Source of the DNA: Vibrio quintilis
GTDB taxonomy: Bacteria; Pseudomonadota; Gammaproteobacteria; Enterobacterales; Vibrionaceae
Assembly (NCBI RefSeq): GCF_024529975.1
Contig: NZ_AP024897.1
Span: 3,534,001 to 3,598,000 of the forward strand
Reading direction: 5' to 3'
Length of the DNA stretch: 64,000 nucleotides
How positions within the stretch are numbered: the first letter of the stretch is position 1; each line of letters begins with the position of its first letter. The notes below the pieces were generated by a model, which was not told the origin of the DNA, made no database searches, and was given only the letters and a program-made list of their open reading frames with translations. Both the position numbers and the translations under genes were made by a program. This document shows, piece after piece, positions 2,795-15,969 of the stretch.

Positions 2795-3250
2795 TAGGGT
2801 TTCCCCGTATGTACGGGGAACACTGGACCGGGCAAATTTGATTTTGGATAAAGCTCGGTTCATCCCCGTATGTACGGGGAACACGATGTCCTGTTCATTC
2901 GAAACATAGCTAATTCCGGTTCATCCCCGTATGTACGGGGAACACTTTTGTCTATTTTCAGATAATGCTGAAGATAGCGGTTCATCCCCGTATGTACGGG
3001 GAACACTTCCCATAATCTTTGCTCGTAGATCCTGTTTACGGTTCATCCCCGTATGTACGGGGAACACGAACTTTTGGATATGCTGAAAGAAGAGCTAGAC
3101 GGTTCATCCCCGTATGTACGGGGAACACGTGATACGGTTGTTGTGCTGATCCAGTATCCGCGGTTCATCCCCGTATGTACGGGGAACACCTTTCTTAATG
3201 TAACTACAACACGCCCCATCACGGTTCATCCCCGTATGTACGGGGAACAC
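2795..3250 (-). CRISPR. Type I-E CRISPR array, 8 repeats and 7 spacers
   Basis: The 29-base repeats start at 2795 (degenerate), 2856, 2917, 2978, 3039, 3100, 3161 and 3222, with an exact 61-base period and 32-base spacers. On the plus strand each begins CGGTTCATCCCC and ends GGGGAACAC, the reverse complement of the E. coli-type I-E repeat. The array is therefore transcribed leftward from a leader to the right. The leftmost repeat has mutated 5' bases, as expected at the leader-distal end. Spacers are all different. No cas gene lies in the window. Confidence 0.97.
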
Positions 3251-3361: not shown

Positions 3362-3619
3362 ATGTCACGACCAGAACAAGATATCGCAGAAATGATATCC
3401 GGACCTTTACTGATGACCTTATTTCCAGTCATTGACTCTCTACCCGGCCAAGACTATTCTAGCCGCTCACCGGCAAAATCCGGTGACGGGTTTAGGACCC
3501 CGGATTTCAACCGTACGACATATAAAATGTCAGCTTCATGCTGATTTATTTATATGCAGTTATTTACACCTGAATTTTATGGTTTTGTCACTTTTTCAGA
3601 CAAAAGCATTTCAAATCAT
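3362..3619 (+). pseudogene. Possible remnant of a phage-satellite Ash/Icd-like gene
   Basis: Two overlapping frames carry fragments that resemble small Ash/Icd-like proteins of P4-type phage satellites: SPAKSGDGFRTPDFNRTT in one frame, and a tail ending TKAFQIMVS in another. The pieces are not in one frame, so a frameshifted remnant is my reading. The similarity is recalled, not searched, and is weak. It lies between the CRISPR leader and the folded RNA. Confidence 0.3.
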
Positions 3620-3621
3620 GG

Positions 3622-3730
3622 TGAGCTGAACGAGGCTGACTTCGGTCAGGCCGTTTCCGTACGGGCGGTTGTCCTAACCTTGTTCAGTTCACCACCCATT
3701 CTTAGGACCTCTGAGTGGTGAGTTTTTTTC
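3622..3730 (+). ncRNA. Highly structured RNA leader ending in an intrinsic terminator
   Basis: Four nested elements fit one fold. A closing stem CTGAACGAGG (3626-3635) pairs with CCTTGTTCAG (3678-3687). A UUCG-capped hairpin CTGAC/GTCAG (3636-3649) stacks on it. A CCGT/ACGG hairpin lies at 3651-3664. A terminator stem TCACCAC/GTGGTGA (3689-3721) is followed by seven Ts. In addition GTCCTAA (3671-3677) is exactly complementary to TTAGGAC (3702-3708) in the terminator loop, so a 7-bp pseudoknot could form. The element ends about 22 bases before a 65-codon gene and could be an attenuator or riboswitch-like leader, or a free small RNA. I know no matching family. Confidence 0.6.
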
Positions 3731-3752
3731 ATCTATTCGTACGGAGGCACTT

Positions 3753-3950
3753 ATGCCTGTAACAATCACTTTCGACCCTCACCTTTCACAGAAATCCCGT
3801 GAATATCTGATTCAGCTTGAAGATCATCTCGATGAGACCGGGCAAAACAATCAGAAAGCACGTGATGCGTTACTTTACCTGAACAAGCTGCTGACCATTC
3901 ATGCTTCAATCCAGGAAGTCACGACAATGAAGGTGGAAGTACCTGAATAA
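3753..3950 (+). CDS. 65-residue protein of unknown function
   Basis: A small, charged, predicted mostly helical protein (SREYLIQLEDHLDETGQ, then ARDALLYLNKLL). The start is supported by GGAGG about 8 bases before ATG. It sits right after the structured RNA and terminator at 3622-3730, and has its own intrinsic terminator at 3979-4006, so it forms a self-contained unit. I do not recognise the family. It is too short for a ToxN-type toxin. It may be part of a degraded phage-satellite module. Confidence 0.7.
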   Translation: MPVTITFDPHLSQKSREYLIQLEDHLDETGQNNQKARDALLYLNKLLTIHASIQEVTTMKVEVPE

Positions 3951-3978
3951 GACTATTGTTCGAAACTAAGCGAGCTCA

Positions 3979-4006
3979 GAGTCACTTCGATGAAGTGGCT
4001 CTTTTT
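3979..4006 (+). terminator. Intrinsic terminator of the 65-codon gene
   Basis: A 10-bp stem GAGTCACTTC/GAAGTGGCTC with a GAT loop and one G-T pair, followed by five Ts. Confidence 0.85.
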
Positions 4007-4089
4007 GATGTTCGAACTGAAGAATGAGACTTTCGTGGATTATTTGGTGCGCGGAATTGGTTTTTAAGCGCATCCATGCGATGCATTGG

Positions 4090-4310
4090 TTAGATTTTGT
4101 CAGCAAGATTCTGGCTTCTGTGGTGGGTGTGGTGCGCCATTGAGTTTTGTGGGTTCAAGCAGCTTTCGGTGCACGCGCCCCAGATACCCTTTCCCGGCGG
4201 AAAGCGTATCCGGAAACGCCTTTCGGCGCGCGCTGCCCGGGGCGGTTTTCCCGTATGTCATCAGAAACGCATTCGATTTCGACGGTTCATCCCCGGAAAC
4301 AGGGGATCTT
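4090..4310. repeat. Solitary 185-bp repeat copy fused to CRISPR repeat relics
   Basis: Bases 4090-4242 match the 185-bp tandem units at 2204-2759. They run straight into CGGTTTTCCCGTATGT (4243-4258), the first half of a CRISPR repeat. A second degenerate repeat, beginning CGGTTCATCCCC, follows at 4283-4310. Nothing here looks coding. It appears to be a decayed CRISPR end. Confidence 0.75.
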
Positions 4311-4374: not shown

Positions 4375-4893
4375 TTAATCTTCTGAAGCGTACTGCTCAA
4401 TTAATTCTTTTATCTTCGGATCAACCCCCGCAATAATTGCCACTCCCTCACGAACAGAGCGGCCACCTTCCCGTTTTGCATCCGGATCAGCTCCAAAATC
4501 AAGCAACAGCTTCACCACGTCATACAAATAAGGTTTTCCCTTCAGTGCCATTTTTAGCGCATTCATACCGTCGCCGTTCCAATGCCCTATCATCCGATCT
4601 GCCCCGCTCTCTAGTAACAGACGCATACCTTCAGTATTACGTTGCCGGACAGCATAAATCAACGGCGTATTGCCATAGCTGTCAATGGCATTGACATCTA
4701 AACCCTGATCAATCAGATATTGTATAGATTCAGATGGAGTCTGTTCCGTTAAAGACATAAATACATGGTGTAAATAAGTCCACTGTTCTGATTCCGTCAC
4801 TTCGTGGATATCTGCACCTTTATCAACAAGTATCCTGACTTCACTCATATCTCCATCAAGTACTGCATCAAATAACTCATATTCGTAACTCAT
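4375..4893 (-). CDS. Ankyrin-repeat protein, probable immunity protein to the adjacent GH-E toxin
   Basis: 172 residues, with about four ankyrin repeats across residues 5-160 (for example GLDVNAIDSYGNTPLIYAVR and LLLDFGADPDAKREGG). No signal peptide, so cytoplasmic. Its start codon overlaps the stop of the upstream toxin gene by four bases (ATGA type), so the two are translationally coupled. Ankyrin proteins directly downstream of polymorphic nuclease toxins commonly serve as immunity proteins. That role is inferred from position and fold. Confidence 0.85.
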   Translation of the reverse strand: MSYEYELFDAVLDGDMSEVRILVDKGADIHEVTESEQWTYLHHVFMSLTEQTPSESIQYLIDQGLDVNAIDSYGNTPLIYAVRQRNTEGMRLLLESGADRMIGHWNGDGMNALKMALKGKPYLYDVVKLLLDFGADPDAKREGGRSVREGVAIIAGVDPKIKELIEQYASED

Positions 4894-6152
4894 TGTGCAT
4901 TCCTGCTTTTCAAAAATTTTTTCATATCTCTGATAATTTGTCTCAAATCATCTGAACCCGGCTTTTCATCTTTGTGGCTAAGATTCCGTTTTGCATCTTC
5001 AATCTGAAAATAATCCGGATGCGCATTCACAAAATCATTTAGATCAGCCTGACTCATTCCCAGCTCATCGGCAGCTTTCAATATGCGGCGGTTTTCATTG
5101 CCGGGTTTATGGCCGTAGTGCCAATCAGTAATCACAGACTGGTCGTCATCAATAAACTGCCCCTGTTCATTCTTATCTGCGGCTTCCTGAATATCTCGCT
5201 TGGTTTTCGCCCGGAGACTGGGACGATCCAATGAAGGCTTAGGGTCCGAACCAGGCCCAAACTGACCATTTGGCCGCCTGATCTGCTGATAAACCACATA
5301 TAGCGGTCTCAGCCCCGTCTCTGCCGGGAAAACCAGAATATAATCTCTTAGATCAGCCTCAGCAACCGGGGTGATATAAGTATTCTCAAATTCTTTTCCC
5401 TGTTCGGCCTGTGGATGAATCCAGATGTCATGGGTTTCAAGATCCGGGATTGGGTTCACCAGTATCGGCTTACCGCCAAAATCGCCCGTGATAGGGATCC
5501 ACTCAATGGTTATGCCATCTTCAAGGGTAACTTCAAATTTATCGCCGTTTTGCGTGACCGTGCGTTTAGGGATGGCATCACCGGCCACATGATAGCCGTA
5601 GATATGGCCCGATTCATCAACCCGCAAACGGATATTAGTTTCAACACGGTTACGCTGACGAATGTCATCCTCTGTATAAAGAGTGCCGTCGCCCATTTTA
5701 GTTGGTGCAAACGCGGCCAGTATTCCGGCCCGGCCAATGATTTTCATCGTCATACCGGGAAGCTCTGCCAGTGCCTGACCGGCGACTCTGGATAACATCA
5801 GGTCATCACTTCCCTGTGCAATGGCTGCCGCGTAAGCGCCATACTGGCCCAGAGAAGATAAAGATTCACACTGTGTTCCAATCTCACAGGTGCCAGCCGG
5901 AACCTGAGCGGATTTGGCAAAAATTTGCGGGACGGTTTCTTCTTCCGTTTGTTTATCTTCTGCCGCTTGTTGGGAGTCTGCTGTTTTCCGGGCTTTGTCT
6001 GCGGCTTCGCGGCTCAGTACCGTTGCCAGTGCCTGATCAGATTCAAGCAGGTTCTGGTTTCGGGGAAGCTTCCGGTTGTGACGCTGCGGCAGGTGATGAC
6101 CCGCCTCCACCTGAGCCACCGCCGCCACGGCGCTGACTATTTTGTCGCTCAT
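4890..6152 (-). CDS. Polymorphic toxin: S-type pyocin domain plus C-terminal GH-E nuclease
   Basis: About 420 residues from the chosen ATG (MSDKIVSA); the frame stays open to 6209. Residues about 1-90 are polar and charged. About 100-310 match the S-type pyocin domain (VETNIRLRVDESGHIYGYHV, then VNPIPDLETHDIWIHPQ, then YILVFPAETGLRPLYVVYQ). The C-terminal 100 residues have the GH-E endonuclease signature: DWHYGHKPGNENRR, then NDFVNAHPDYFQIEDAKRNLSH. It is likely delivered to competitors by T6SS or as a bacteriocin and cuts nucleic acid. Its N-terminal coding region overlaps another frame (6043-6621) that ends in a Gly/Pro-rich linker, so a frameshift splitting one longer protein is possible. 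Confidence 0.85.
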   Translation of the reverse strand: MSDKIVSAVAAVAQVEAGHHLPQRHNRKLPRNQNLLESDQALATVLSREAADKARKTADSQQAAEDKQTEEETVPQIFAKSAQVPAGTCEIGTQCESLSSLGQYGAYAAAIAQGSDDLMLSRVAGQALAELPGMTMKIIGRAGILAAFAPTKMGDGTLYTEDDIRQRNRVETNIRLRVDESGHIYGYHVAGDAIPKRTVTQNGDKFEVTLEDGITIEWIPITGDFGGKPILVNPIPDLETHDIWIHPQAEQGKEFENTYITPVAEADLRDYILVFPAETGLRPLYVVYQQIRRPNGQFGPGSDPKPSLDRPSLRAKTKRDIQEAADKNEQGQFIDDDQSVITDWHYGHKPGNENRRILKAADELGMSQADLNDFVNAHPDYFQIEDAKRNLSHKDEKPGSDDLRQIIRDMKKFLKSRNAQ

Positions 6153-6621
6153 CGAAATAACTTTCTGCCACATGTCTGAGTAACAGATTTTTCCGGGCGT
6201 GTGGAGCATGTCGCCAGCGTGTCATTTCTGCCCGGTGGCTGAGTTGCATTTGTTCACTTTGAGCGTAACGGTACACTGAAGCTGTATTCAGACTGCTGCT
6301 GCCATGATGATGCTGCATCATCAGAGTAATCGTTTCAGGGCCAAAGCGGGTGACTAAATCTGCCTGTTGTCTCAGTTCCCATTCAAAGCGGGATAAAGCG
6401 TTGATGATTGCTTCTGCGCTGGCGTGCCCCTGCTGATATTGACGATAGATTTTTCCGGAAATTTCAGAGATTTCTCTGGAAAACTGTATAGCGGCAGTCC
6501 CTGAAAACAGACAGCCGGAAGAAAAACACCGGGAAGCCATGATTGATACTGAAGTAGAAAAGCGCCGCATCGCGTTATCTACTTCCCAGCTTTGATAAAG
6601 AGCGGGACGTTTTTTGTTCAT
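6043..6621 (-). CDS. Hypothetical protein upstream of and overlapping the GH-E toxin
   Basis: 192 residues of unknown family, mostly helical, with a conserved-looking core (QFSREISEISGKIYRQYQQG; FEWELRQQADLVTRFGPETI). The tail turns into GGGGSGGGGSSPAAA and a Pro-rich stretch while overlapping the start of the toxin gene by about 110 bases in another frame. Such a linker is typical between effector domains, so this may be the true N-terminus of the toxin, separated by a one-base frameshift. No strong ribosome-binding site is seen at its ATG. Confidence 0.5.
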   Translation of the reverse strand: MNKKRPALYQSWEVDNAMRRFSTSVSIMASRCFSSGCLFSGTAAIQFSREISEISGKIYRQYQQGHASAEAIINALSRFEWELRQQADLVTRFGPETITLMMQHHHGSSSLNTASVYRYAQSEQMQLSHRAEMTRWRHAPHARKNLLLRHVAESYFDERQNSQRRGGGGSGGGGSSPAAASQPEASPKPEPA

Positions 6622-9800: not shown

Positions 9801-10047
9801 AAAAGTTTGTTTTTATTCGCAAGATTCAGGCTGTTGTGGAATGGTGTGGTGCGCCATTGAGTTTTGTGGGTTCAAGTAGCTTCAGGTGCACGCGCCCCAG
9901 ATACTTTTCCCGGCGGAAAGCGTATCCGGAAACGCCTTTCGGCGCGCGCTGCCCGGGGCGGTTTTGTAAGCGCATCCATGCGCACAAAACCTCAAATTCA
10001 TCCTGAATTTGCCTGCTATACGGTTTCTCTGTATGTACGGAGAATAC
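9801..10047. repeat. 185-bp repeat copy ending in a lone degenerate CRISPR repeat
   Basis: Matches the 185-bp units, then the same linker found at 2759-2794 (CACAAAACCTCAAATTCATC), then a degenerate repeat at 10019-10047 (CGGTTTCTCTGTATGTACGG). It therefore repeats the leader-distal end of array 1 without any array attached. Confidence 0.8.
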
Positions 10048-12240: not shown

Positions 12241-12864
12241 TTAGAGAGCGGCATCACATAAAAGTTCATCAGAAATATGACGCCATGAACAGAAAAACCG
12301 GCCGGAATCTGTTTCCAGTATCATCTCATCCCCTTGTAAAACGGGGTCTGGCGCTGTTTTCCAGTGCAGGTTCCCCAGCTCTGTCAATTTATTGTCAATT
12401 ACCGCCTGACAGGATGGCGCACAATGCAAAACTCCTTGTACCGGCTGCTTCTGTGCCTGAATCACCTGCTTTATCACCACTCTGAGGCGTTCATCTTCAT
12501 CATATGTGTCCAGTAATGAGCGGGTTGTATGGCGTAAAGCCATCTCAGCACTTTGTCCGATATCTTCCCACATTCTTTCCTGTTCAAGCCGCAGAGCCTC
12601 CAGCAATTCATTTGCTGCCTGCCATATCTGCTGCTCTGTATCCTTTCTTGCCAGCAGAGCAATATCTTCAGCCTGCTGTCTGGCTTGCTCCTGTATTTTT
12701 TCTGCCTGCGCATGTGCCTGTTCAATCATTGCTGCGGCCTCTTCGCGTGCATTCTCTTTCAGCTGCGCTGCATCAAAACTGAGCCGAAGCACTTTTGCTT
12801 TTAACAGCGGCCCGGCAATCACACCGTCCGGCACAGATAAGTTCAGTTGCCGTTTCACAAACAC
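12241..12864 (-). CDS. sctL: Type III secretion stator protein SctL (HrpE/YscL family)
   Basis: 207 residues from a GTG chosen because AAGGAG lies 7 bases upstream (GTG TTT GTG AAA). Residues about 40-110 form a long Ala/Glu/Gln-rich coiled coil (KIQEQARQQAEDIALLARKD) typical of the peripheral stalk that binds the SctN ATPase. The C-terminal half (VLHCAPSCQAVIDNKL; LETDSGRFFCSW) matches the FliH/YscL globular domain. It is the last gene of the operon, 11 bases after sctK. No sctN is in the window. Confidence 0.85.
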   Translation of the reverse strand: MFVKRQLNLSVPDGVIAGPLLKAKVLRLSFDAAQLKENAREEAAAMIEQAHAQAEKIQEQARQQAEDIALLARKDTEQQIWQAANELLEALRLEQERMWEDIGQSAEMALRHTTRSLLDTYDEDERLRVVIKQVIQAQKQPVQGVLHCAPSCQAVIDNKLTELGNLHWKTAPDPVLQGDEMILETDSGRFFCSWRHISDELLCDAAL

Positions 12865-12875
12865 ATCGATTCTCC

Positions 12876-13508
12876 TTACTCTTTTGCTGCCATGAGCTGG
12901 CTTTCTTCGACAGTGGATAACCGCCAGATCACCCCATGCCATAACTGATTCAAACGCTGGCCGGGAATCTCCCCCGGTGACAGGTTTTCAATCGCGACGG
13001 AGAGTTCATCCGGATAATAAAGCCGGGCACGTAACCACGCGGACGGCGACAGCCACTCCCGCAATAACAGAATCCCAATCTGCCCGGCATTCAGATCATG
13101 GTATCCGGCAAGCGGCCACTTTCCCGGCATTAAAGCTCTGGCCAGATGACGTGCCCATGCCATATGTGAGTCATCAATTAAATCCCGGGCAATATCCCGG
13201 ATGACAATTTCAGCAGCCAGATAAAGGGCAGATAATTTGAGTGCCGGAGATAAAGCAACCCATTGCAAAAGCACCTCACCCGGTTCCGGGGGAAGTCCGC
13301 TATCTAAGTGCAACAGGGAATGAAGAATAGCGGGATCAATGTGCTTCCAGCTGTCATTGTTCTGCATGTTCTGCAGCGCCCCGGGTAAAGATCCGGGCAG
13401 AAGCGCCTGCCAGCCGGGCATCATCTCATGCCATGGCTGCTGCCAGAATTGCAGCCAGTTCAGGTATCGCTTATCCGACAAATGAATCTGATCATCCATG
13501 TTGCTCAT
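12876..13508 (-). CDS. sctK: Type III secretion sorting-platform protein SctK (HrpD-like)
   Basis: 210 residues, Trp/Leu-rich, with no membrane segment. The position between sctJ and sctL equals that of hrpD in the Hrp1-type operon hrpA-hrpB-hrcJ-hrpD-hrpE of Pseudomonas and Erwinia. SctK proteins link the ATPase stalk to the cytoplasmic pods. The sequence is poorly conserved across the family, so assignment leans on gene order. Confidence 0.7.
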   Translation of the reverse strand: MSNMDDQIHLSDKRYLNWLQFWQQPWHEMMPGWQALLPGSLPGALQNMQNNDSWKHIDPAILHSLLHLDSGLPPEPGEVLLQWVALSPALKLSALYLAAEIVIRDIARDLIDDSHMAWARHLARALMPGKWPLAGYHDLNAGQIGILLLREWLSPSAWLRARLYYPDELSVAIENLSPGEIPGQRLNQLWHGVIWRLSTVEESQLMAAKE

Positions 13509-13538
13509 CCCCTGTGAATGTCCATGTAACTGGCCGTA

Positions 13539-14315
13539 TTACTGTCCGGACTGCTTCTGACGGCGTCCCGGCCATGACGGTCTTAATCCGGGCCGGAGCC
13601 AGAGTGCCATGACAACAGACAGAATCAGCACAATCAATCCGCTGCAAATCACCACAGACTGCCAGAATCCCGCATCACTCTCTTTCATCAGAAATGGTCC
13701 GAAGCTGACATATTTAATCTGTTCCCTGTAAGCCTGTGCCGGAATAAACACCACACTGAGTTTATCTTTTTTTCCTGACAGCCCCGGAATACTGGTTTGT
13801 ACCAGCCGGGTAATTCTGGGACGCATCACATCCGGGTCCAGCGCCGGACGATGTTTAATAAAGACGGCAGCGGATGCCGGCTGAACCGGTTCTCCCGGCG
13901 CCACCCGCTCCGGAAGCACGACATGAACGCGGGCAACCAGCACGCCGTCAATCTGAGAAATCGTCGATTCAAGTTCCTGAGAAAGCGCATAAATATAACG
14001 GGCACGCTCTTCCAGCGGAGATGAAATCACCCCTTCCTTACGGAATATATCGCCCAGATTCGCTCTGGACTTTCTTGGCAGACCAGCGGCTTCAAGAATC
14101 CGGACCGCTCTGGCCATATCTGACATATCCACGGAGATAATGACCCCGTCTTTTGCCAGTGACTTTTCTGCTTCAATATGTTTATACGCCAGCTCTGCAA
14201 TCACCTCATTGGCATCTTGTTCAGATAAATTGCGGTGCAGTTCGACATACTGCTGGCATCCGCCCAGAAAAATCAGCATTCCTGACAGCAGGATCCGGAA
14301 CAATATTTTCATCAA
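13539..14315 (-). CDS. sctJ: Type III secretion inner-ring lipoprotein SctJ (HrcJ/YscJ)
   Basis: 258 residues. Lipoprotein signal with lipobox LGGC at about residues 17-20, two ring-building domains (LSEQDANEVIAELAYKHIEA; ISQIDGVLVARVHVVLPE), then one C-terminal membrane segment (SVVICSGLIVLILSVVMALWL) and a basic tail. This is the usual YscJ/PrgK layout and length. It forms the inner-membrane ring of the injectisome. It lies between sctI and sctK with very short gaps. Confidence 0.95.
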   Translation of the reverse strand: MMKILFRILLSGMLIFLGGCQQYVELHRNLSEQDANEVIAELAYKHIEAEKSLAKDGVIISVDMSDMARAVRILEAAGLPRKSRANLGDIFRKEGVISSPLEERARYIYALSQELESTISQIDGVLVARVHVVLPERVAPGEPVQPASAAVFIKHRPALDPDVMRPRITRLVQTSIPGLSGKKDKLSVVFIPAQAYREQIKYVSFGPFLMKESDAGFWQSVVICSGLIVLILSVVMALWLRPGLRPSWPGRRQKQSGQ

Positions 14316-14325
14316 CCGCTTCCCC

Positions 14326-14703
14326 TTATTGCAGGCTGGTCAGCTTTTCTACGGCCTGCGTCCCTTTACTAATCAGTTTGGTGGTCAGCAGGCTTTCCAG
14401 ATAAAAAGAAGACAGAGAACGGTTCGCCTGCATTACATCCTGCGGGTCACTGGAACGTGAAGCTTTGCGGACTGCCCGGTCTGCTTTATCAGACAACTTC
14501 TGCAAATGTTCTGACGAACCGGCAAGCTGGCTGACGATTCTCTCGGCGACATTATTGTCATTATCTTTTTGCTGCACGGGATTCAGTGCCGCACTGAACC
14601 AGCTGACATCAGACTGATCCGGCGCTGAAGGTTCGGCTGTCGCCGGTGAAATGTTCCCGGACTGAGGGATTTGATGATTGAGCTGAACAGAGTGAACGGA
14701 CAT
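14326..14703 (-). CDS. sctI: Type III secretion inner-rod protein SctI (HrpB-like)
   Basis: 125 residues from the ATG preceded by AAAGGAGGAAGTG. Polar N-terminus; the C-terminal helix (QANRSLSSFYLESLLTTKLI followed by SKGTQAVEKL) has the features of inner-rod/needle-adaptor proteins. Position ahead of sctJ is as in hrpB-hrcJ. Assignment rests on order, size and C-terminal pattern. Confidence 0.75.
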   Translation of the reverse strand: MSVHSVQLNHQIPQSGNISPATAEPSAPDQSDVSWFSAALNPVQQKDNDNNVAERIVSQLAGSSEHLQKLSDKADRAVRKASRSSDPQDVMQANRSLSSFYLESLLTTKLISKGTQAVEKLTSLQ

Positions 14704-14865
14704 CACTTCCTCCTTTAAGCCAAGGAAAAACAGGCAACAGTGAGGCCATTGCCTGCATCCTTGCATCGAATAGTTACCCTGTGAGTCACAGATACAGCGA
14801 TCATCAGAAACGGAAAACCGCTGAGGCCGCCATATAATGTGATCACATCACGGACGTTCTGTTGA

Positions 14866-15969
14866 TCAGGCAGCAACTTTGTTCATGGCTTCAAACACAA
14901 TGGCGTTAGACAGCATCATGACATCCGTATCCAGCTGATGATCACCCGTACTCTGGCCGTTCATCACACCTTTTACATCGCTCATCGCCTGTTTGAAACG
15001 GTTGATTTCTTCAAAGTTGAAATCTTTTCCTTTTTCAATCCGGTTCGCCCATCCGCCTCTTGGCTGTTCACCGTAACGATCGGTATGGTGATCCATATAT
15101 TTACCAATCGCTTCAGCAATATCTTTATCACCATCATTAAACGAATAACGGGCAAAATGGTCCATTTTACTGTCACTCAGTCCCAGACCAAGCGGGCCTT
15201 TACCGATATCAATGCTGTCAACCGCTGTCTTTCCGACATGTGCCGCAAAGCTGTTGCCCAGATCAAAACCTGCCTGTCCCATCGGGCTCAGGTCTGCCGG
15301 ACTCATGCCACCGCCAAAACCGCCGGCTCCGGCGCTACCGAAACCACAGCTGCCAAAGCCCTGAGATCCGATTCCCTGAAAATCAAAGCCCCGGTGACCA
15401 AAGCCTGAACTTCCGCCGATCTGATTTCCCAGTCCGGAGAGGACATTCCCGGCGATATGTCCGGCTGCATCACCAACCGCGCCGCCAACCATACTGCCGA
15501 CCGGGCCACCAAAAGCAGAACCAGCCAGACTACCGGCAAGGCCACCCAGGCTGCTGACCAGAGAGCCGACACCATTGAGTAAATTGGATAAAAAGCCTTT
15601 CAGCCCTTTGGAAAACTCTGATAACTCTTCTTTATTCAGGTAGTTATCTTCTTTCAGTTCATCATTCCAGTTACGGACATGACCCGTTGCATCATTCGGG
15701 CTGGCAATTTCAGGATGATGCTGGTCCATAAAACTGGCCACCATTTTCATCAGCGGGTTGCTGGCATCAAAGGTGCCGCCATCCCACTTTTTCTGAAATA
15801 AGCCTTTCATCAACGCATCAGCCAGCGCATCGACCTTTTCCTCAGTCGTTTGCCTGCCGGGGCCGGAATACTGAGAGAGTTGCCGCGAGCCTTCAGACAA
15901 ACTTCCGGCCTGCTGCAATCCATCAGACTGACCGAGCGGAATACTAATGGTCAGGGTTGCATTAATCAT
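14866..15969 (-). CDS. Harpin (HrpN/HrpZ-like), secreted type III helper protein
   Basis: 367 residues, very Gly-rich (about residues 135-240 GxGGxxG segments), acidic and heat-stable in character, with a harpin-like N-terminus (TISIPLGQSDGLQQAG) and C-terminal HrpN-like region (DGDKDIAEAIGKYMDHH, then FNFEEINRFKQAMSDVKGVM). Harpins are exported through the Hrp system and act in the extracellular space or on host membranes. One Cys is present (GFGSCGFGS), unusual for this group. The start has AGGAGA 6 bases upstream. Second gene of the hrpA operon. Confidence 0.85.
   Translation of the reverse strand: MINATLTISIPLGQSDGLQQAGSLSEGSRQLSQYSGPGRQTTEEKVDALADALMKGLFQKKWDGGTFDASNPLMKMVASFMDQHHPEIASPNDATGHVRNWNDELKEDNYLNKEELSEFSKGLKGFLSNLLNGVGSLVSSLGGLAGSLAGSAFGGPVGSMVGGAVGDAAGHIAGNVLSGLGNQIGGSSGFGHRGFDFQGIGSQGFGSCGFGSAGAGGFGGGMSPADLSPMGQAGFDLGNSFAAHVGKTAVDSIDIGKGPLGLGLSDSKMDHFARYSFNDGDKDIAEAIGKYMDHHTDRYGEQPRGGWANRIEKGKDFNFEEINRFKQAMSDVKGVMNGQSTGDHQLDTDVMMLSNAIVFEAMNKVAA

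Follow-up and report, generated by a model that had tools for sequence, protein, structure and literature searches.

The RNA C4 is known above all for its part in phage immunity. It is carried by phage P4, and the immI gene order of phages P1 and P7 is c4-icd-ant, with icd directly following c4 in P1 and Ant representing an antirepressor. The C4 RNA has been described as being cut out by RNase P, with one of its loops partly covering ribosome-binding sites (PMC5320573). In P1, C4 and Icd are reported to regulate ant (PMC8201110), and Icd, encoded in the immI region, is reported to stop cell division through FtsZ (PMC11897509). For Gifsy-1, a terminated leader RNA has been described that coexists with a read-through mRNA and switches translation on in trans (PMC4825925). 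In A. baumannii AB5075, the Group 1 sRNAs are described as expressed, apparently processed and varying in the a' loop (PMC5320573).

The locus analyzed here lies in a 64-kb stretch of Vibrio DNA (the window) and includes an isrK-like leader, a C4 RNA and a 65-codon gene (Table 1). It is very probably a self-contained C4 antisense switch that is predicted to hold translation of the adjoining gene off; silencing is predicted because the antitargets of the C4 RNA match target pairs on its flanks, one of which overlaps the ribosome-binding site. The observations behind this reading are the RNA family match, four complementary sites that change jointly, the overlap with the Shine-Dalgarno sequence and the selection acting on the open reading frame (ORF).

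The C4 module and its fold

When the whole window was scanned with Rfam, only C4, isrK and c4-a1b1 reached their cut-offs, all three at this locus and ordered as in a C4 operon. The C4 match is full length (RF01695, 71.2 bits versus a cut-off of 45), the leader scored 57.7 bits with RF01394 (cut-off 50), and neither a riboswitch family nor another leader RNA family was matched anywhere in the window. By these covariance-model scores, the folded RNA is classed as a C4 antisense RNA, located behind an isrK-like leader with c4-a1b1 targets, and not as a new riboswitch; since the C4 family is already known, the module represents no new kind of RNA. A sequence-only reading of this DNA had proposed a new riboswitch-like leader, which the family matches do not support, and had also named a P4-satellite-style immunity RNA, which was right at the level of the RNA family, C4 being a curated Rfam family.

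The long closing stem, the UUCG hairpin and the third hairpin described in that reading do fold as claimed; the free energy of positions 3610-3735 was -48.4 kcal/mol, compared with -32.2 +/- 3.5 kcal/mol for shuffled sequences (z -4.67), and none of 200 shuffles was as good. Folding and alignment both gave the three-stem C4 fold, and the compensatory changes that had been suggested as a check on the fold were found, both-sided, in 18 of 27 consensus C4 pairs in an alignment of 32 sequences. The window copy carries GGT at 3620-3622, an instance of the GGW motif of RNase P processing that was read by eye in 31 of the 32 aligned copies, and which would represent the RNase P cut site.

The exact 7-base match between GTCCTAA (3671-3677) and TTAGGAC (3702-3708), previously described as a pseudoknot, is present and real; it is, however, one of four matches, and a further copy of the same target, at 3492-3498, had gone unreported. 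In the window copy, the junction antitarget forms 7 bp with its upstream and 7 bp with its downstream target, and the hairpin-loop antitarget forms 7 and 8 bp, respectively, so that two antitargets with matching sites, one of them at the ribosome-binding site, are found here as in other C4 RNAs. Target CGTACGGA (3738-3745) and the Shine-Dalgarno sequence GGAGG (3743-3747) have GGA in common. The four matches are the bipartite antitargets and target sites that have been described for C4 (PMC5320573).

The sequence-only reading had further interpreted the 7-base match as part of a cis-acting attenuator, or riboswitch, in which a pseudoknot captures the loop of a terminator. The 3' arm of the window C4 can in fact pair with 3715-3722 ahead of a T7 run, and the reported T-tailed terminator is therefore present in the window; this hairpin is an alternative pairing of the 3' arm of C4, and a run of at least 5 Ts within 45 nt 3' of C4 was found in only 12 of 76 small-ORF modules. 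The loss of the T-run from most modules, the extra upstream copy of the loop sequence, the pairing of the second antitarget elsewhere, the in-register changes of the code among modules (see below) and the match to an antisense RNA family, with none to a riboswitch family, all argue against an attenuator, which we consider highly improbable.

Other parts of the module are shared to different extents. In the genome that contains the window (own genome), the ATTGAC block of the promoter is visible in the alignment of 11 of the 13 modules, and a TTGAn..TAnnnT pattern is present in 49 of the 76 small-ORF modules. An isrK match (E<1) was found upstream of all 13 own C4 copies, and five of these matches exceed the cut-off; at this loose limit, 10 of 14 control genomes also had a match, none of them over the cut-off. 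The leader-terminator test was passed by 53 of 76 small-ORF modules. The window copy is not one of them, and its leader hairpin is not directly followed by a run of 4 Ts; by this test the window's own leader terminator is weak. The terminator that had been reported after the gene can be read in the sequence at 3979-4006, and one is visible by eye in 8 of the 13 own-genome modules.

Table 1. Features of the C4 module in the window and of the modules that adjoin CRISPR arrays
Feature	Position	Strand	Basis
Sigma70-type promoter, TTGACT (3432-3437), 17-nt spacer, TATTCT (3455-3460)	3432..3460	+	read from sequence
isrK-like leader RNA, 3' hairpin and T-rich tail (TCAGC..GCTGA + TTTATTTAT)	3467..3550	+	Rfam RF01394
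c4-a1b1 target element (upstream C4 targets)	3454..3506	+	Rfam RF03163, 47.8 bits, cut-off 46.7
Upstream target of junction antitarget, TTAGGAC, loop of possible hairpin GGG-TTTAGGA-CCC	3492..3498	+	7 contiguous pairs with 3671-3677
Upstream target of hairpin-loop antitarget, CCGTACG	3511..3517	+	7 contiguous pairs with CGTACGG, C4 third-hairpin loop
C4 antisense RNA	3614..3699	+	Rfam RF01695, full model 1-87; compensatory stem changes
Hairpin-loop antitarget TCCGTACG	3656..3663	+	8 bp with 3738-3745; shifted two bases, 7 bp with 3511-3517
Junction antitarget GTCCTAA (previously a pseudoknot arm)	3671..3677	+	matches 3492-3498 and 3702-3708
Downstream target of junction antitarget, TTAGGAC	3702..3708	+	changes together with C4 in paralogues
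Alternative hairpin, C4 3' arm (3688-3695) with 3715-3722, then T7 (3723-3729)	3688..3729	+	fold
Downstream target of hairpin-loop antitarget, CGTACGGA	3738..3745	+	8 contiguous pairs
65-codon gene, predicted two-helix protein	3753..3950	+	own-genome relatives, dN/dS, AlphaFold2
Intrinsic terminator GAGTCACTTC..GAAGTGGCTC TTTTT	3979..4006	+	read from sequence
CRISPR-adjoining modules	window 2798-3250 and 3432-4006; G000:C1:1731900-1732791		

Pairing specificity in the own genome and across Vibrio

The own genome (5.85 Mb, 3 contigs) contains 13 C4 matches; two of the modules, c2_819 and c2_825, are identical, leaving 12 non-identical modules. Both downstream duplexes reached at least 7 contiguous bp in 12/12 of these, compared with 2 of 132 non-cognate ordered pairs, in a count that may be inflated as the antitarget windows overlap by 8 bases; both exceptions involve c1_2321 and c1_2478. 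When the antitargets were cut apart, which frees the computation for the own genome of this overlap, cognate sums were 15-17 bp versus a non-cognate mean of 9.8, and non-cognate sums reached 14 in the c1_2321/c1_2478 pairs only. The observed pairing total of 185 was reached in none of 200,000 permutations, the permutation maximum being 169. Two pairs of modules are not insulated in this genome, namely the cross-matching c1_2321/c1_2478 and the identical c2_819/c2_825.

The 7-base match itself recurs with altered letters in the paralogues. Because cognate matches are kept while the letters differ among paralogues, the partners have changed together in 12/12 modules, the opposite of the independent change that had been put forward as evidence against the pairing. 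Since the 13 units hold largely separate codes, each unit is likely to be silenced mainly by its own RNA.

Within the genus, 55 of 227 genomes have a C4 match, 38 of these having one or two, and 24 of 369 genomes sampled from the class have a match. A closer search found 27 copies in G478 (4 of which were taken for the analysis of loci), 23 in G568 (17 taken), 22 in G538 (V. ruber; 5 taken), 21 in G596 (8 taken), 18 in G427 (V. aerogenes CECT 7868; 16 taken), 16 in G553 (Vibrio sp. MEBiC08052; 5 taken), 14 in G477 (1 taken) and 13 in G535 (3 taken). These eight related Vibrio genomes and the own genome, with 13, make up nine genomes with 13-27 copies, and three more genomes have 7-8. Proteins of the remaining high-copy genomes are named from V. 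gazogenes, V. rhizosphaerae, V. spartinae and Vibrio sp. 99-8-1. A 1.5-Mb genome shows four C4 matches spaced by ~350-600 nt (G319:C9:1700-3092), arranged as tandem mini-modules.

Both downstream duplexes were found in 14/17 cognate versus 0/272 non-cognate combinations in G568. With each duplex at least 7 bp, the corresponding counts were 8/8 versus 1/56 in G596, 6/7 versus 2/42 in G584, 10/16 versus 13/240 in G427, 2/5 versus 1/20 in G538, 2/5 versus 0/20 in G553 and 2/8 versus 0/56 in G510. By these counts, which were made with the same overlapping antitarget windows and may likewise be inflated, cognate pairing and insulation are weaker in genomes other than the own genome and G568. Of 154 loci built, 148 were retained after 3 identical loci, 2 without the motif and 1 without a flank were set aside. 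Pairing of at least 7 bp was found, for the hairpin antitarget, downstream in 116/148 loci (121/3274 sampled non-cognate pairs) and upstream in 104/148 (223/3270), and for the junction antitarget downstream in 117/148 (176/3138) and upstream in 129/148 (301/3238). The cognate counts are lower bounds, since the cutting pattern truncates some antitargets (the window junction was counted as 6), and the 148-locus figures are descriptive, since the loci are related and not independent.

The clearest single case of antitargets and targets changing together is the site next to dusB, the only one for which synteny is claimed. At this site, own module c1_320 and locus L116 of G427 share one code, and L157 of G478, which has the same downstream flank as c1_320 (78% over 2.4 kb), differs from it in both antitargets and their targets. 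A Pfam Dus match in L116 supports the dusB neighbour, and dusB is presumably accompanied by fis at the site shared by c1_320, L116 and L157. No synteny is claimed for c1_1731 and L110 of G427 because their flanks are shared partly through repeated elements. In a separate group of loci (L166-L171, L175, L176 and L020, from G510, G515 and G020), the upstream C4 matches are kept and the downstream matches are mostly absent; most of these C4 RNAs are followed by a gene encoding up to 164 aa that belongs to no known Pfam family. Could control in this subset, then, operate through the leader sites alone?

The 65-codon gene and its genomic setting

The downstream ORF, picked heuristically at each of 151 loci, belongs to the 65-aa family in 56 cases (54-99 codons as called), to a family of 48-60 codons in 18 and to a third small family in 4. 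Another 25 are phage regulator-like, which we take to be of the Rha/KilA-N type, and 9 belong to the family of up to 164 aa; two loci had no ORF, and the rest fall into small groups or singletons. In the eight high-copy genomes, 56 of the 59 loci taken precede a gene of the three small families. Profile comparison found no relationship between the 65-aa family and the two other small families, and a Pfam search with ten other C4-gated proteins gave nothing convincing (best E 0.1).

The 65-codon gene had been called an orphan, and neither the RNA nor the protein was thought to match a family. Besides the RNA being C4, this does not hold for the gene, as 85 proteins of its family were found at E<=0.01, own copies counted; every one with a species or genus name is from Vibrio, and all are labelled hypothetical or uncharacterized, except for one jgi label, cation transport regulator ChaC. 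What stands is that the protein matches no Pfam and no PADLOC family. The own genome holds 12 protein matches (E<=0.001, own place included), 10 of which lie behind a C4. Across 36 pairs of nine 65-aa members, dN/dS was 0.04-0.44, by which measure the ORF is evidently under purifying selection. The relatives and these ratios therefore mark it as a real, selected gene. One PHROG match was found at E 0.15. AlphaFold2 predicted a two-helix hairpin (helices 9-29 and 34-58; mean pLDDT 77.6, pTM 0.54), and Foldseek found no significant similarity among 23 matches in the PDB (best E 4.1) or 121 matches in viral models (best E 0.54). At the settings used, no relatives of the protein were found in IMG/VR or in the phage and plasmid collections.

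These data bear on the possibility, raised in the sequence-only reading as an RNA antitoxin-type unit, that the module is a type I-like toxin-antitoxin system, in which the small protein would halt growth, C4 would be the RNA antitoxin and loss of the module would harm the cell. The immI region of P1 also holds a growth inhibitor, the 73-aa FtsZ-binding protein Icd (PMC11897509, PMC8201110), and an E. coli match to the C4 DNA lies inside a gene annotated as Icd-like (best 5 of 304 records). The purifying selection on the small proteins and the largely insulated codes in the own genome and G568 fit such a system as well, as does locus L105 of G427, which has a C4 and an ORF that diverges from the family in its second half, as would be expected if antitoxins outlive toxins. 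On the other hand, BLASTP found no similarity between the 65-aa protein and the E. coli Icd-like protein, a PADLOC family is lacking, and the predicted helical hairpin is unlike type I toxins, which are hydrophobic. Moreover, an own-genome relative at C1:467112-467288 has kept its ORF; no C4 lies ahead of it, and what isrK-like sequence is present there is weak (20.8 bits, E 0.07). A relative without C4 and with an intact ORF argues against a lethal product. Overall, a toxin-antitoxin system seems possible, though less probable than not. Around the same relative (61 aa; G000:C1:467039-467288, ~11030-11296 of L040), the leader target runs straight into sequence resembling the downstream target, as would result from loss of a C4 that lay between two target repeats.

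The genomic setting was surveyed in other genomes with 107 ORFs (130-600 codons, at most 3 per locus) near 42 small-ORF modules. These match mainly ordinary chromosomal families, such as LysR, flavodoxin, ABC transporters and Hcp. Among the best 25 families, no Pfam integrase or structural phage family matched two or more ORFs, and PHROGs gave one tail-fibre family (2 ORFs) and unnamed families, with single endolysin or transposase matches among the matches listed. Stand-alone modules thus seem, for the most part, to have ordinary genes as neighbours. Some copies in the own genome do adjoin mobile genes: an integrase, a GPA-type replication gene and a group II intron lie between c1_309 and c1_320, and c1_2478 is near an integrase. 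Region L043 of this genome (G000:C2:813500-833000) contains tandem 6.6-kb filamentous-phage-like units, each with an identical C4 module (c2_819/825); the units also encode a G2P-type replication protein, an HTH protein and an S-type pyocin DNase. For the leader-plus-C4 DNA, matches were found in 303 of 5426 E. coli genomes, in 5 records of Vibrio phages and in 16 of plasmids, with no phage or E. coli match covering 80% of it.

Two phage-related roles need to be weighed against this setting. In the first, the small protein would be an antirepressor that inactivates phage repressors, and C4 would keep resident prophages quiet. An antirepressor gene shares the operon in P1 and Gifsy-1 (PMC8201110, PMC4825925), and small proteins are reported to inactivate the repressor in Vibrio prophages (PMC10432266); the placement of stand-alone modules mostly among ordinary genes (107 ORFs, 42 modules, best 25 families) speaks against this role, which appears rather unlikely. 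In the second, the chromosomal C4 RNAs would form an immunity bank, silencing incoming phages, filamentous phages or satellites whose own C4-gated gene uses the same code. C4 is described as blocking superinfection in P1/P7 (PMC5320573), and the tandem phage-like units with c2_819/825 and their G2P replication protein, the Vibrio phage and plasmid records with similar DNA and the 25 of 151 C4 loci that precede phage regulator-like genes are all consistent with immunity; the proteins are conserved, however, whereas a bank made of RNA alone could do without conserved proteins, and we judge this role unlikely.

The module could also be the dead remnant of a prophage immunity region, given that no ant gene follows and that none of the ten nearby proteins scanned in the window matches a Pfam phage family. 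Against this, the promoter, the four matching sites, the Shine-Dalgarno sequence, the ORF and the terminator are all intact and dN/dS is low, which makes a remnant very doubtful indeed.

In two of the 13 C4 modules, one of them that of the window, the promoter lies ~110-180 nt from a CRISPR array and the module is transcribed away from it (Table 1). Judging from the repeat, we take these arrays to be of type I-E, with the leader end facing the module. The position of these two modules next to arrays prompted a test for a CRISPR link, CreTA-like systems being CRISPR-guarded toxin RNA units. The best match of 18 spacers to the 12 own modules was 21/33 identical, equal to the best of one shuffled-spacer set, and spacers thus match the modules no better than shuffled ones; a CreTA-like unit was rejected on these grounds.

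Several other features of the window were noted. The opposite strand carries, immediately beyond the C4 module (4375-6209), genes for an S-type pyocin with a GH-E nuclease domain and then an ankyrin-repeat protein, which is possibly the immunity partner of the pyocin. A dispersed GC-rich repeated element occurs at ~2190-2760, 4060-4250 and 9826-10000; it shows up in ORF translations that recur and in matches between flanks and G427 loci. The genes at 12241-15969, with a YscJ-like lipoprotein at 13539-14315, resemble a type III secretion cluster, and those at 24526-58068 resemble a large rnf/nif nitrogen-fixation cluster.

Proposed mechanism and comparison with known systems

In the proposed mechanism, a single promoter would give rise to a leader that ends partly at the isrK-like terminator and to read-through transcripts that carry C4 and the 65-codon gene. 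RNase P would excise C4, as has been shown for P1/P7, and the excised RNA would pair, in cis or in trans, with the target just ahead of the gene and so keep the ribosome off. Pairing of C4 with the leader sites would likely favour early termination or titrate C4, and conditions that raise the leader or lower C4 may release the protein. The C4 of each module is expected to silence that module's own small gene. The gene product is likely a tightly held effector, which may inhibit growth, as Icd of P1 does, or act as an antirepressor in the manner of Ant.

More broadly, an RNA of phage immunity may have been converted in this Vibrio group into as many as 27 stand-alone switches per genome, mostly insulated from one another and with a two-part code, each restraining a small effector, that is, an RNA-coded many-allele toxin-antitoxin or immunity repertoire, and the same logic may explain the Acinetobacter C4-like RNAs; this wider proposal is speculative and put forward with some reserve. 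The copies, with bipartite codes that change in step with their targets, amount to a naturally occurring collection of antisense regulators, largely insulated and useful as a source of parts and as a model of how RNA specificity diverges. Where C4-like sRNAs lack an assigned target, as with the 21 of A. baumannii, the next small gene becomes a concrete target candidate, and the small proteins, which form at least three families without detectable similarity, are new candidate growth inhibitors or antirepressors.

Compared with C4 of P1/P7, the Vibrio modules have in common the RNA fold, the two antitarget segments, a small gene in the same operon, a target over the ribosome-binding site and specificity set by upstream sequences. 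Unlike in P1/P7, they stand alone without ant, they occur in 13-27 copies per genome in nine genomes, and their protein has no BLASTP similarity to the E. coli Icd-like protein. A P1-type immI operon, with icd and ant under C4, was also considered for the window and was rejected; one 65-codon gene and a terminator are found there, and no ant.

The module also resembles IsrK/orf45/anrP of Salmonella Gifsy-1 (RF01394), for which a terminating leader RNA with read-through is described together with an ~80-nt RNA that is processed from the downstream part and shares complementary sequences with the leader (PMC4825925). In Gifsy-1, as described there, orf45-anrP is gated within a prophage that also has antQ, whereas the Vibrio module has one 65-codon gene, which is followed by a terminator of its own. 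In the TF-smORF induction modules of Vibrio prophages, a small protein is likewise made upon switching; there the switch is a transcription factor, and here it would be an antisense RNA (PMC10432266).

The closest parallel in copy number is Group 1 of A. baumannii AB5075, with 21 C4-like RNAs in one chromosome (PMC5320573). The targets of these RNAs are left open in the excerpts of PMC5320573 used here, whereas the sites of the Vibrio C4 RNAs adjoin C4 and lie before a small gene. Adjacent, co-changing targets before small genes, present in 13-27 copies and with insulation measured, were not found in the open-licence literature, to the extent that its text was available. A multi-copy C4 set is thus in itself already known from A. 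baumannii (PMC5320573), and it is the adjacent, mutually insulated small-gene targets of the Vibrio modules that appear to be new.
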